Source: Kushneria pakistanensis
Lineage (GTDB): Bacteria; Pseudomonadota; Gammaproteobacteria; Pseudomonadales; Halomonadaceae
Direction: 5' to 3'
Assembly: GCF_014652795.1 (NCBI RefSeq)
Contig: NZ_BMZM01000003.1
Coordinates: 620,001-684,000, forward strand
Length of the DNA stretch: 64,000 bases
This document shows positions 53,777 through 56,896 of this stretch, piece by piece. Under the pieces are notes generated by a model, which worked only from the letters and a program-made list of their open reading frames with translations, was not told the origin of the DNA and did no database searches. The position numbers and the translations under genes are program-made. Numbering within the stretch: the first letter of the stretch is position 1; each line of letters starts with the position of its first letter.

Positions 53777-54241
53777 GTGCTGATTTCAGACTCGATCCCA
53801 CTATTGTGGCTATGCTGGTTCGTACTATCCGTTATTGTGCTGGTCTGCGGCTATCTTGCCATTTCATTTCTGCCGCGCCTGCCTCGCTGGCTGATCGCCG
53901 GGGGGGTAGCAGGCATGCTCTGGATGCCGGCCTTCTTTTCAGTACCCGGTCCCGAGTCGGAGCTTGGCTATTCAGGCTGGGCCCCTTCGCTGATCGTCAC
54001 GGCTGTCGGCTTTCTACAGCATAACGGCGGTCAGGTCCTTTTTGGCGGCGTATTAATGGCCATCGGGGCGCTGCTGGGCATGCTGGTCACCTTCTTTATC
54101 GGCCGGCGTGGCCGACACGACAGTGAAGATGACGACCGCGCCGAGGGTACTCGGACACAGCGGCGTCCATCCGGCCGTGACCAGACACCTCGACGCAAGG
54201 ACAGTGCCCCGGCGCGTCGAGAACCTTCGCTCGGGAGATAG
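53777..54241 (+). CDS. Hypothetical small inner-membrane protein
   Basis: No family is recognised. The 154-residue protein has three hydrophobic segments (about residues 7-30, 37-55, and 84-110 with VLFGGVLMAIGALLGMLVTFFIG). A hydrophilic tail of about 45 residues rich in Arg, Asp and Ser (RRGRHDSEDDDRAEGTR) is probably cytoplasmic and disordered. A GTG start follows GGAGG with 10-base spacing. It is 6 bases upstream of the VWA gene and starts the operon, so a role with the VWA protein is plausible but unproven. Confidence 0.6.
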   Translation: MLISDSIPLLWLCWFVLSVIVLVCGYLAISFLPRLPRWLIAGGVAGMLWMPAFFSVPGPESELGYSGWAPSLIVTAVGFLQHNGGQVLFGGVLMAIGALLGMLVTFFIGRRGRHDSEDDDRAEGTRTQRRPSGRDQTPRRKDSAPARREPSLGR

Positions 54242-54246
54242 GCCCT

Positions 54247-56031
54247 ATGCTGTATCGGTGGCTGGTGACAGGTACATGGTTATTGCTGGCTCTGATGGTA
54301 CTGCCTGTACAGGCAGCGCCGCAGGACGGCACTGAACGGGGTGATGTTCGCCTGGCCATCGATGTGTCCGGCAGCATGAAGGACAACGATCCGGATAACC
54401 TGCGTGCCAGCGGCGTCCGTCTGATGGTGGATCTATTGCCCGACAATGTTCGCGCCGGGCTCTGGACCTTTGGTCAGCAGGTCGCCAATCCGCTGGCCAT
54501 GGAGGCCGTCAACGACCAGTGGCGCCAGCGTGCGCTCTCCGTGTTGCCGCAGCTGACCCGATACGAGCAGTTCACCGACCTTGAGTCAGCGCTGAATCTG
54601 GCCACACAGGATGTGACCAGCGATGGCCGCACGCATCTGATCGTGCTGACCGATGGTATGGTGGATGTACCTGCCATCAGCGACAAGCCGGCCCAGGATC
54701 GTGCCTCGCGCGAGCGCATCATCGAGACGCTCGCGCCGGATCTTGCCGAGCGTCATGTGGTCATTCATACCATTGCACTTTCGCGCAATGCCGATATTGA
54801 TCTGATGCGTGACATCTCGCAGCAGACCGGCGGACTTGCCTCGGTAGCCGAGGATTCGCGGGCGCTTCTGCGCTCCTTTCTTGATGTCCTCAATCAGGTG
54901 GCGCCACGTCAGCAGTTGCCGCTGGAAGATGGCCGGTTCCAAGTCGATGATCAGGTCCGTGAGTTTACGGCACTGATCTTTCATGATCGGGACGAAGGTC
55001 CGGTCACGCTGATCAGTCCCACCGGTGAGCGCCTGAGTATCGAGTCGCCGGGCGCCGCAAGCCGCTGGCGTCATGATGACCGCTATGAACTGATTACCGT
55101 GCCCGAGCCTGCTGCCGGGCAGTGGCGCATTGATGGGCCGGTGGGTGCAGGCTCACGTATCCTGATCGACTCAAAACTGCAATTGCGAAGTGGCAAAATA
55201 CCGGCCACATTGTACGAGCATTTCGATCTACCCTTGGAGGTCTGGCTGGAAGGTCAGCCCGATCAGGACGATGCCTCGGCGCAGAGACCTGCCGTAGATG
55301 CAGTGTTGCGAGGTGCCAACGGTGAGATCACCAGCGCTCGCCTGCCGCACGAGGCGGATGGACGTTACCGCGGGCGCCTTGAGCACATCAATCAGACAGG
55401 CAATGCCGAACTGGCCCTTCAGGCGCAAGGCGATGCCTTTGCGCGATTGTTGACCCGTAGCGTCAACGTTGTTCCGGCCATCGATGCCGCACTTTCCAGT
55501 GACCAGGCCTACATTACGCTGAGCGCAGCCCATCCTCGTCTGACGCGGGATAACACCCGTATCAATGCGCAGCTGCTGGGGGAAACGCTGAAGGTTACGC
55601 CGGTGGCGGAGAGTCGCTGGCGGGTCACGTTACCCGATACCCTGCCGGAGGAATCCGTATCGGTAGAGCTGACGGCCACGGTGGCCCTGGATGACCGGAT
55701 ACACGACGTCCCGCTGCCGCCGGTGGTGCTCAACCGTGAGGCGGCCACCAGCCTGTCCGGTGCCCGTCTTGATCGTGACACGATCAGCAGTGAAAAAATG
55801 GCGTCCCGTCAGGACGATGACGAGGAAGAACAGAGATGGTCACTGCAGCGCCTGTGGCAGCTGGCGCAGGATAACTGGCCGGCGGCCAGGGCGCAGGCCA
55901 TACAGTGGATGCAGGACCCGCGCGCGTGGTGGGTGGCCGCCGTCCTGGTATTGCTTTGTCTATTGCTTGCCTTCAGACGACGTCGCCTGCGACGTCAGCG
56001 TCCCCGACACAGGAGAGACCCGAGTGTGTGA
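54247..56031 (+). CDS. Membrane-anchored VWA-domain protein
   Basis: The 594-residue protein has a signal peptide (LVTGTWLLLALMVLPVQAA) and a von Willebrand A domain at about residues 33-220. Its MIDAS metal-binding motif is DVSGSMKDND (D39, S41, S43), with a further aspartate in LIVLTDGMVD. A long periplasmic beta-rich part follows, then a membrane segment (WWVAAVLVLLCLLLAF) and an Arg-rich cytoplasmic end. It resembles the TIGR03503-type family of unknown function. The stop lies inside the next gene's start, an 8-base overlap. Confidence 0.78.
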   Translation: MLYRWLVTGTWLLLALMVLPVQAAPQDGTERGDVRLAIDVSGSMKDNDPDNLRASGVRLMVDLLPDNVRAGLWTFGQQVANPLAMEAVNDQWRQRALSVLPQLTRYEQFTDLESALNLATQDVTSDGRTHLIVLTDGMVDVPAISDKPAQDRASRERIIETLAPDLAERHVVIHTIALSRNADIDLMRDISQQTGGLASVAEDSRALLRSFLDVLNQVAPRQQLPLEDGRFQVDDQVREFTALIFHDRDEGPVTLISPTGERLSIESPGAASRWRHDDRYELITVPEPAAGQWRIDGPVGAGSRILIDSKLQLRSGKIPATLYEHFDLPLEVWLEGQPDQDDASAQRPAVDAVLRGANGEITSARLPHEADGRYRGRLEHINQTGNAELALQAQGDAFARLLTRSVNVVPAIDAALSSDQAYITLSAAHPRLTRDNTRINAQLLGETLKVTPVAESRWRVTLPDTLPEESVSVELTATVALDDRIHDVPLPPVVLNREAATSLSGARLDRDTISSEKMASRQDDDEEEQRWSLQRLWQLAQDNWPAARAQAIQWMQDPRAWWVAAVLVLLCLLLAFRRRRLRRQRPRHRRDPSV

Positions 56032-56812
56032 GCTACTGGGCATGAGCGCCAATCAGCCGGTCAATACCGGTTTCAGCTGGCGTGGATTCAAGCACCGAGG
56101 CGGAGACAATGGTCCCCATCGGGATGGGTTCGGCATTGGCTTTTATCGTCGTGACGGCTATCACGATTTTCATGATGTGCGCGCGGCGATGGATTCACCG
56201 CTGGCGGAGCTGCTTGGTCGTGACAATATCCCGGCCCTGATCATGCTGGGCCATCTTCGCCATGCCAATGAAGGCAGCATTGAAATCCAGAACACCTATC
56301 CGTTTACGCGGGAAACGAAAGGACGGCGCTGGTGCTATACCATGCAGGGCCAGTTGGAAGGGTTTGAAGCGCTGAAACTTTCCGGTCGATTTACGCCACT
56401 GGGCACCACGGATGGCGAACACGCTTTCTGCTGGCTGCTTGATCAGCTGTCGGAAGAAGATTGCGACAATTCTTCCGCGGTCTGCGAACTGTTGCGCCAG
56501 TGTAGTGACCGACTGGCCCAAATGGGCGTTTTCAACATGATGCTCAGCGATGGCCGGACGCTTTATACCTACTGCAGCAAAAAAATGTGCTGGCTGACCC
56601 GGCGTGCGCCCTTCGGTACCGTGACCTCACTGGACAGCGGCGAGCATATTGACCTTGCTGAGAACTGTGATAGCGCCACGGTCTATACCCTGCTGGCAAC
56701 ATCGCCCCTGACCAGTGAGGCAGGCTGGCAGGACATGCATCCGGGGGAGGCGATGGCCTTTTGTGACGGCGAGCGGTGTGATGTCAGCACCCCGGAAGCC
56801 ATGACGGCCTGA
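56024..56812 (+). CDS. Class II glutamine amidotransferase (YafJ-like) with altered oxyanion motif
   Basis: The 262-residue protein matches YafJ over its full length: CELLGMSANQPVNTGFSW, RGGDNGPHRDGFGIGFY, GHLRHANEGSIEIQNTYPF and KGVFNM-like GVFNMMLSDGRTLY. Cys2 is the N-terminal nucleophile once fMet is removed. The GTG start at 56024 lies 7 bases after AGGAGA. The usual AHNGQL motif, where Asn and Gly form the oxyanion hole, reads TMQGQL here (in RRWCYTMQGQLEGF). Glutaminase activity may therefore be reduced or altered. It overlaps the VWA gene by 8 bases. The natural substrate of YafJ proteins is unknown. Confidence 0.88.
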   Translation: MCELLGMSANQPVNTGFSWRGFKHRGGDNGPHRDGFGIGFYRRDGYHDFHDVRAAMDSPLAELLGRDNIPALIMLGHLRHANEGSIEIQNTYPFTRETKGRRWCYTMQGQLEGFEALKLSGRFTPLGTTDGEHAFCWLLDQLSEEDCDNSSAVCELLRQCSDRLAQMGVFNMMLSDGRTLYTYCSKKMCWLTRRAPFGTVTSLDSGEHIDLAENCDSATVYTLLATSPLTSEAGWQDMHPGEAMAFCDGERCDVSTPEAMTA

Positions 56813-56838: not shown

Positions 56839-56880
56839 CAAAAGGCGCCGCAGACACGGTCAATGTCTGCGGCGCCTTTT
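56839..56880. terminator. Bidirectional terminator between the amidotransferase gene and cysK
   Basis: AAAAGGCGCCGCAGACA pairs with TGTCTGCGGCGCCTTTTT around a 7-base loop, a perfect 12-bp GC-rich stem with A and T runs on both sides. It can end transcription from both converging genes. Confidence 0.93.
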
Positions 56881-56896
56881 TGAACTCAAGACTTTT

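Follow-up and report, generated by a model that had tools for sequence, protein, structure and literature searches.

The window analysed here, a 64,000-nucleotide stretch of the Kushneria pakistanensis genome, carries a YafJ-family (GATase_4) gene, hereafter GAT, in whose product the His-Asn-Gly (H-N-G) motif of class II amidotransferases, including the oxyanion-hole Asn, is replaced by Met-Gln-Gly (MQG). The replacement is fixed in a clade of proteins from salt-loving Kushneria and two Salinicola species. Based on the sequence comparisons, we hold with about even confidence that the variant is a working but remodelled Ntn amidohydrolase with a repacked pocket and an altered substrate or rate. 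In class II amidotransferases, the HNG Asn is regarded as indispensable. A clade that occurs naturally, is kept by selection and lacks this Asn, set beside the Asn-bearing orthologs that sister genera carry at this locus, makes a ready comparison of Ntn active-site rebuilding, and the clade also offers a handle on the role of the widespread, uncharacterised YafJ family.

Active-site residues and predicted fold

Translation from the GTG start at 56024 to the stop codon at 56810-56812 gives a 262-aa protein (MCELLGMSANQPV...GHLRHANEG...NTYPFTRETKGRRWCYTMQGQLEG...). Homologues start at MCEL, and a 373-aa ORF at 55691-56812 was set aside as a mere upstream extension of GAT. The sequence-only reading had called the product a full-length YafJ homologue with Cys2 and the arginine loop LRHANEG, and it was right on each count: both elements are found in the translated protein, Pfam GATase_4 (PF13230) matches residues 1-255 with 257.5 bits against a cut-off of 23, which places the protein in this family, and the closest solved structure by sequence is P. 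aeruginosa 1te5 (E 1.5e-56). Identity is 46% to E. coli YafJ, about 46-49% to other Halomonadaceae YafJ members and 83-90% to the nearest named loci (n=4), which are from Kushneria species. The gene and the residues discussed below are as follows.

56024-56812, + strand: variant GATase_4 (YafJ-family) gene (translation, PF13230, AlphaFold2, 1te5)
56027-56029, + strand: Cys2, retained, the expected nucleophile at the N-terminus once Met has been removed (C in 10/10 of the clade and 173/173 others reaching the position)
56129-56131, + strand: Phe36, a weak marker (F in all 10 clade members; among the 177 others, 163 have W and 14 have F)
56258-56260, + strand: Arg79, kept, equivalent of GFAT-1 Arg95, the substrate carboxylate Arg (alignment; mapping from PMC7000685)
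56270-56272, + strand: Glu83, at the position of GFAT-1 His99 and new to the MQG clade (9/9 MQG members have E; mostly V, R or S in others)
56297-56299, + strand: Tyr92, at the position of GFAT-1 His108 in the L-Glu pocket (Y in 10/10; H in 160 and Q in 17 of the 177 others)
56342-56350, + strand: Met107-Gln108-Gly109 replacing His-Asn-Gly, with Gln108 at the oxyanion-hole Asn position (MQG in 9/10, MHG in 1/10; HNG in 177/177 others)
56411-56416, + strand: Asp130, kept, and Gly131, which is Ser in 176/177 others (homologue alignment)

FAHNGQL in 1te5 corresponds to YTMQGQL here (codons 56336-56356), so that the altered motif described earlier is confirmed, with Asn replaced by Gln (Q108, CAG at 56345-56347) and His by Met. 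Had another Asn taken over the oxyanion position, the earlier claim would have fallen; no substitute Asn occurs in residues 103-111, the motif loop. At 16 positions the 177 other homologues are at least 99% invariant, and the MQG proteins retain 13 of these (C2, D34, H77, R79, N90, G109 and E132 among them) and lose exactly H107, N108 and S131, which are lost in all ten clade members. Measured against the hallmarks of class II amidotransferases, the clade has the N-terminal Cys nucleophile (Cys2) and the substrate Arg and Asp (R79 and D130) in 10/10 members, as it has Asn90, while the oxyanion Asn-Gly pair is reduced to Gly109 (10/10), with Gln (9/10) or His (1/10) at position 108. The N-terminal stretch MCELLGM is invariant among the MQG members. 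The single His108 protein comes from G018, a genome of another genus in the family, and shows the same three losses and, in addition, has Q at position 77, where His is otherwise invariant. A Trp36 to Phe change was unique to the clade in an 80-sequence set, but the 14 Phe-bearing homologues in the larger set weakened it as a clade-specific marker.

In the human GFAT-1 structure, Cys2, Asn123, Gly124, Arg95, Trp96, Thr98, His99 and His108 surround L-Glu, where Asn123 lies at the amino group of Cys2, and the L-Glu pocket holds His99, His108 and Gly124 (PMC7000685). Aligning the motifs RxAxxG, N-x-[HQ]-P-F and [HM]-[NQH]-G maps these residues, in the order given, to C2, 108, 109, 79, 80, 82, 83 and 92 of the variant, and alignments with PurF and EgtC support this register for the R motif and the HNG motif. 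Because GFAT-1 places the equivalents of 83, 92, 108 and 109 at Cys2/L-Glu, the changes cluster in the pocket. D130 we take to be the equivalent of GlmS Asp123, with the S131 position directly after it. The AlphaFold2 model of the variant (59 rows) has a pLDDT of 94.0 and a pTM of 0.91, with a pLDDT of 94.8 for an H-N-G ortholog (L008). A structure search with the variant model returned 1te5 as the best match (TM 0.81-0.83, E 1.8e-23), which identifies the Ntn class II fold; the next PDB matches were EgtC, apo and ligand-bound, and then GFAT-1/GlmS.

Distribution and single origin of the variant

GAT is present in 7 of the 10 Kushneria genomes, all reading [TI]MQGQL, and is absent from the other three (G002, G005 and G007). 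Salinicola aestuarinus reads AMQGQL and S. halophilus VMQGQL, both at about 66% identity to the window protein; taken together, the Kushneria and Salinicola proteins, 65-91% identical to that of the window, all read [TIAV]MQGQL. G018 reads VMHGQI. The 177 other distinct homologues, from Halomonadaceae plus the order and class searches, are mostly gammaproteobacterial and all carry H-N-G, down to 25-30% identity, although they are not independent data points and the sampling of distant GATase_4 groups is thin. Thus, to the earlier question whether Gln is clade-wide, the answer is yes for the GAT-bearing Kushneria and the two Salinicola and no for the remaining Halomonadaceae. A sequencing error or an isolated mutation is ruled out by the agreement between seven Kushneria genomes and two from Salinicola.

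Searches at class level (369 genomes) and at order level (391 genomes) gave no match above 290 bits outside Kushneria, against more than 530 bits for Kushneria members, and therefore no further close members were found there; these counts and the E-values apply to the sampled genomes. No plasmid-borne relative exceeded 60% identity. The pattern Y-x-M-[QH]-G-Q, searched for at the DNA level, served for candidate finding only, as it also matched unrelated genes (e.g., a YRMQGQ conserved in genus g4). The idea that the variant is a paralog accompanying a normal YafJ was rejected in the variant-bearing genomes checked, each of which has one full-length GATase_4 match in the PF13230 search; the remaining matches in Kushneria, Salinicola and G018 are partial and lie within larger frames of 500-880 aa. 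One additional homologue, at 31% identity and reading HNG, occurs in G006. GAT is missing from many Halomonadaceae genera and seemingly from most other genomes of genus g4.

A simple reading would be that the variant and E. coli YafJ catalyze an identical reaction, Gln having substituted for Asn neutrally. The fold, the locus, the operon structure and most catalytic residues are indeed unaltered, but four or five pocket changes come together, and such an exchange is absent elsewhere because H-N-G (177/177) and S131 (176/177) hold down to 25-30% identity. We consider this reading very improbable.

In a tree built without the trait columns, the ten variant proteins form one clade with a long stem (SH-aLRT 98 and 99). 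These ten proteins represent about three genera and one origin, and the co-occurring changes therefore count as one evolutionary event rather than as repeated co-variation. The glutamine/gamma-glutamyl pocket would have been rebuilt once, in an ancestor shared by Kushneria, the G018 genus and part of Salinicola, and retained since. The free tree puts the variant clade outside the other Halomonadaceae; since a tree constrained to keep the Halomonadaceae in one group is better by 4 log units and is not rejected (p-AU 0.61), this odd placement is probably a long-branch effect. At the codon level, AAC (Asn) to CAC (His) to CAG (Gln) would be a short route, the His state being the one seen in G018, whose M-H-G ortholog (L130) is a possible intermediate state.

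Selection and candidate chemistry

Between Kushneria species, GAT has a dN/dS of 0.08-0.13 (NG86), and neither a frameshift nor a stop was found in any of the 10 variant members; the variant protein is thus maintained under purifying selection. Its constraint is weaker than that of canonical YafJ: dN/dS is 0.03-0.07 for most close H-N-G pairs, and within Kushneria GAT is 83% identical vs 91% for FadD, whereas between H-N-G genera GAT is 83% identical vs 78% for FadD. The new pocket states are unchanged across Kushneria and Salinicola at about 66% identity. If the selected function had been lost in this lineage, the gene would be drifting and the pocket changes would be an early step to its loss. 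Its absence from 3 of the 10 Kushneria, which leaves a clean gene order, and from many Halomonadaceae genera fits such decay, as does evolution faster than in canonical relatives. However, the low dN/dS, the intact frames, the fixation of the derived pocket residues in Kushneria and Salinicola, and the conserved ribosome-binding site and overlap with the upstream gene largely refute it already, and we judge decay to be improbable.

Because the nucleophile, Arg, Asp and Gly are kept and Gln has a donor amide, we deem a working remodelled amidohydrolase the most likely explanation. Met1 would be removed and Cys2 would attack an amide, the tetrahedral intermediate being held by the Gly109 backbone NH and by the side-chain amide of Gln108 as a stand-in for Asn, while Arg79 and Asp130 would continue to grip an amino-acid-like head group. 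H92Y, H107M, N108Q, S131G and the new E83 may then alter the choice of amide or the speed of its cleavage. More tentatively, the clade may represent Ntn cysteine amidohydrolases in which Gln (His in the sister genus) for the oxyanion Asn is part of a coordinated pocket rebuild that serves a new substrate. The function of the variant probably differs from that of its relatives. The sequence-only reading had offered either a changed reaction or a lost glutaminase activity; the clade-wide loss of Asn and other pocket residues bears this out as far as sequence goes, which does not decide between the two.

Papain, a cysteine hydrolase, forms its oxyanion hole with the side chain of Gln19 and a backbone NH (PMC8244254), and Gln108 possibly replaces Asn in the same way, though the fold is unrelated and the likeness is one of analogy only. 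In Cys-Ntn enzymes the oxyanion is stabilised by an Asn side chain, and for one of them, CBAH, computation put the cost of neutralising the oxyanion residue Asn82 at about 6 kcal/mol (PMC3289653); given this cost, and with Gln one methylene longer than Asn, the activity of the variant could be strongly reduced. Also against this reading, position 108 is His in G018, so that no single donor is required. In the papers searched, we found no study of an Asn-to-Gln change at the class II oxyanion position, and no functional study or activity for YafJ or close relatives.

The serious rival, which ranks second after the remodelled amidohydrolase and which we regard as a real if tentative possibility, is that amide hydrolysis has been lost and that the protein survives as a pseudo-amidotransferase with a binding or regulatory role, still able to recognise a partner or a glutamine-like ligand. 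The clade lacks three residues that rank among the most invariant of the family, the oxyanion Asn included, position 108 is Gln or His, and constraint is relaxed (dN/dS about 0.1, against the lower values of most close H-N-G pairs). On the other hand, Cys2, the MCELLGM stretch, Arg79, Gly109 and Asp130 are still invariant in MQG members, and Gln and His at 108 both retain a hydrogen-bond-donating side chain.

Among known systems, YafJ/GATase_4 proteins (1te5, E. coli YafJ) share full-length homology, fold, Cys2, Arg79, Asn90, Gly109 and Asp130 with the variant, and differ from it in H-N-G (M-Q-G in the variant, M-H-G in G018), TDSE (TDGE), NTHPF (NTYPF) and ANVG (ANEG). The ergothioneine amidohydrolase EgtC (4zfj, 4zfk, 4zfl) is the second-best structure match after 1te5 and has the same Ntn fold and Cys2, but is only about 16% identical in structural alignment, and the variant scores 29.5 bits against the 218.65 cut-off of the EgtC equivalog model TIGR03442. 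EgtC cleaves a gamma-glutamyl amide, 4zfl being the substrate complex. The glutaminase domains of GlmS/GFAT and PurF share the Ntn class II fold and the Arg/Asp/Gly pocket elements; unlike them, the variant has no synthase domain and its catalytic Asn is replaced. In the glutathione-degrading yeast Dug2p-Dug3p complex, the glutamine amidotransferase-type subunit Dug3 is reported to act on gamma-glutamyl bonds (PMC7617739); Dug3 needs Dug2, and its likeness to the variant lies in this reported activity. Since EgtC acts, and Dug2-Dug3 is reported to act, on gamma-glutamyl bonds, gamma-glutamyl compounds would be the first substrate candidates for the remodelled enzyme.

Gene order and neighbouring features

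The surroundings of GAT comprise the following features.

53777-54241, + strand: gene for a small membrane protein of the same cluster, with a weak VTT-domain match below the Pfam cut-off (Pfam; synteny)
54247-56031, + strand: upstream gene for a VWA-domain membrane protein (PF00092), with an 8 bp overlap with GAT that is identical in H-N-G relatives
56011-56015, + strand: AGGAG ribosome-binding site, 8 nt 5' of the GTG start, read from the sequence
56844-56881, no strand assigned: inverted repeat of 13 bp, flanked by runs of A and T, found by eye between GAT and the cysteine synthase gene that converges on it

The order rnd-ycgL-ycgN-S9 peptidase-VTT-like-VWA-GAT-cysM-fadD-hrpA is identical in the window and G018, and VWA-GAT-fadD is common to H-N-G genera; because of this match, the variant is the YafJ ortholog at its ancestral locus. 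With this gene order and the p-AU of 0.61 for a united Halomonadaceae, a horizontal import into Kushneria is unnecessary. In Salinicola (L128, L129) the variant GAT lies at another locus, in a region syntenic between both species, with the VWA homologue on a separate contig; relocation and transfer from a Kushneria-like donor are both possible. The loss of GAT in three Kushneria (L142, L143, L144) is clean, VWA being followed directly by cysM or fadD, which makes these strains natural knockouts.

The overlap of the GAT start with the VWA stop (56024-56031) reads GTGTGTGA (ATGTGTGA in relatives) and is conserved across Halomonadaceae. Kushneria, G018 and the twelve H-N-G loci examined all have the VWA stop 8 bp inside GAT ([A/G]TGTGTGA); the H-N-G proteins thus share both locus and overlap with the variant. 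The two genes are separable in both directions: three Kushneria retain VWA without GAT, and five H-N-G genomes of genus g11 have GAT with no VWA homologue found. The earlier suggestion that the protein changed by becoming a regulatory or binding partner of the VWA protein did not hold up, since H-N-G homologues share linkage and overlap equally; co-occurrence with VWA is not specific to the altered form, and a binding role, if there is one, does not have VWA as its specific reason. The overlap is ancestral and uninformative on the changed motif.

The AGGAG ribosome-binding site is kept in 7/7 GAT-bearing Kushneria. GAT starts with GTG in all seven and in the two Salinicola, and with ATG in G018 and nearly all others checked; GUGUG and AUGUG starts have been the subject of a study in E. 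coli (PMC9841429). Downstream of GAT, the inverted repeat at 56844-56881 is long and perfect. A pattern scan recovered a partial minus-strand version of it only, and it is probably a shared bidirectional terminator of GAT and the cysteine synthase gene.
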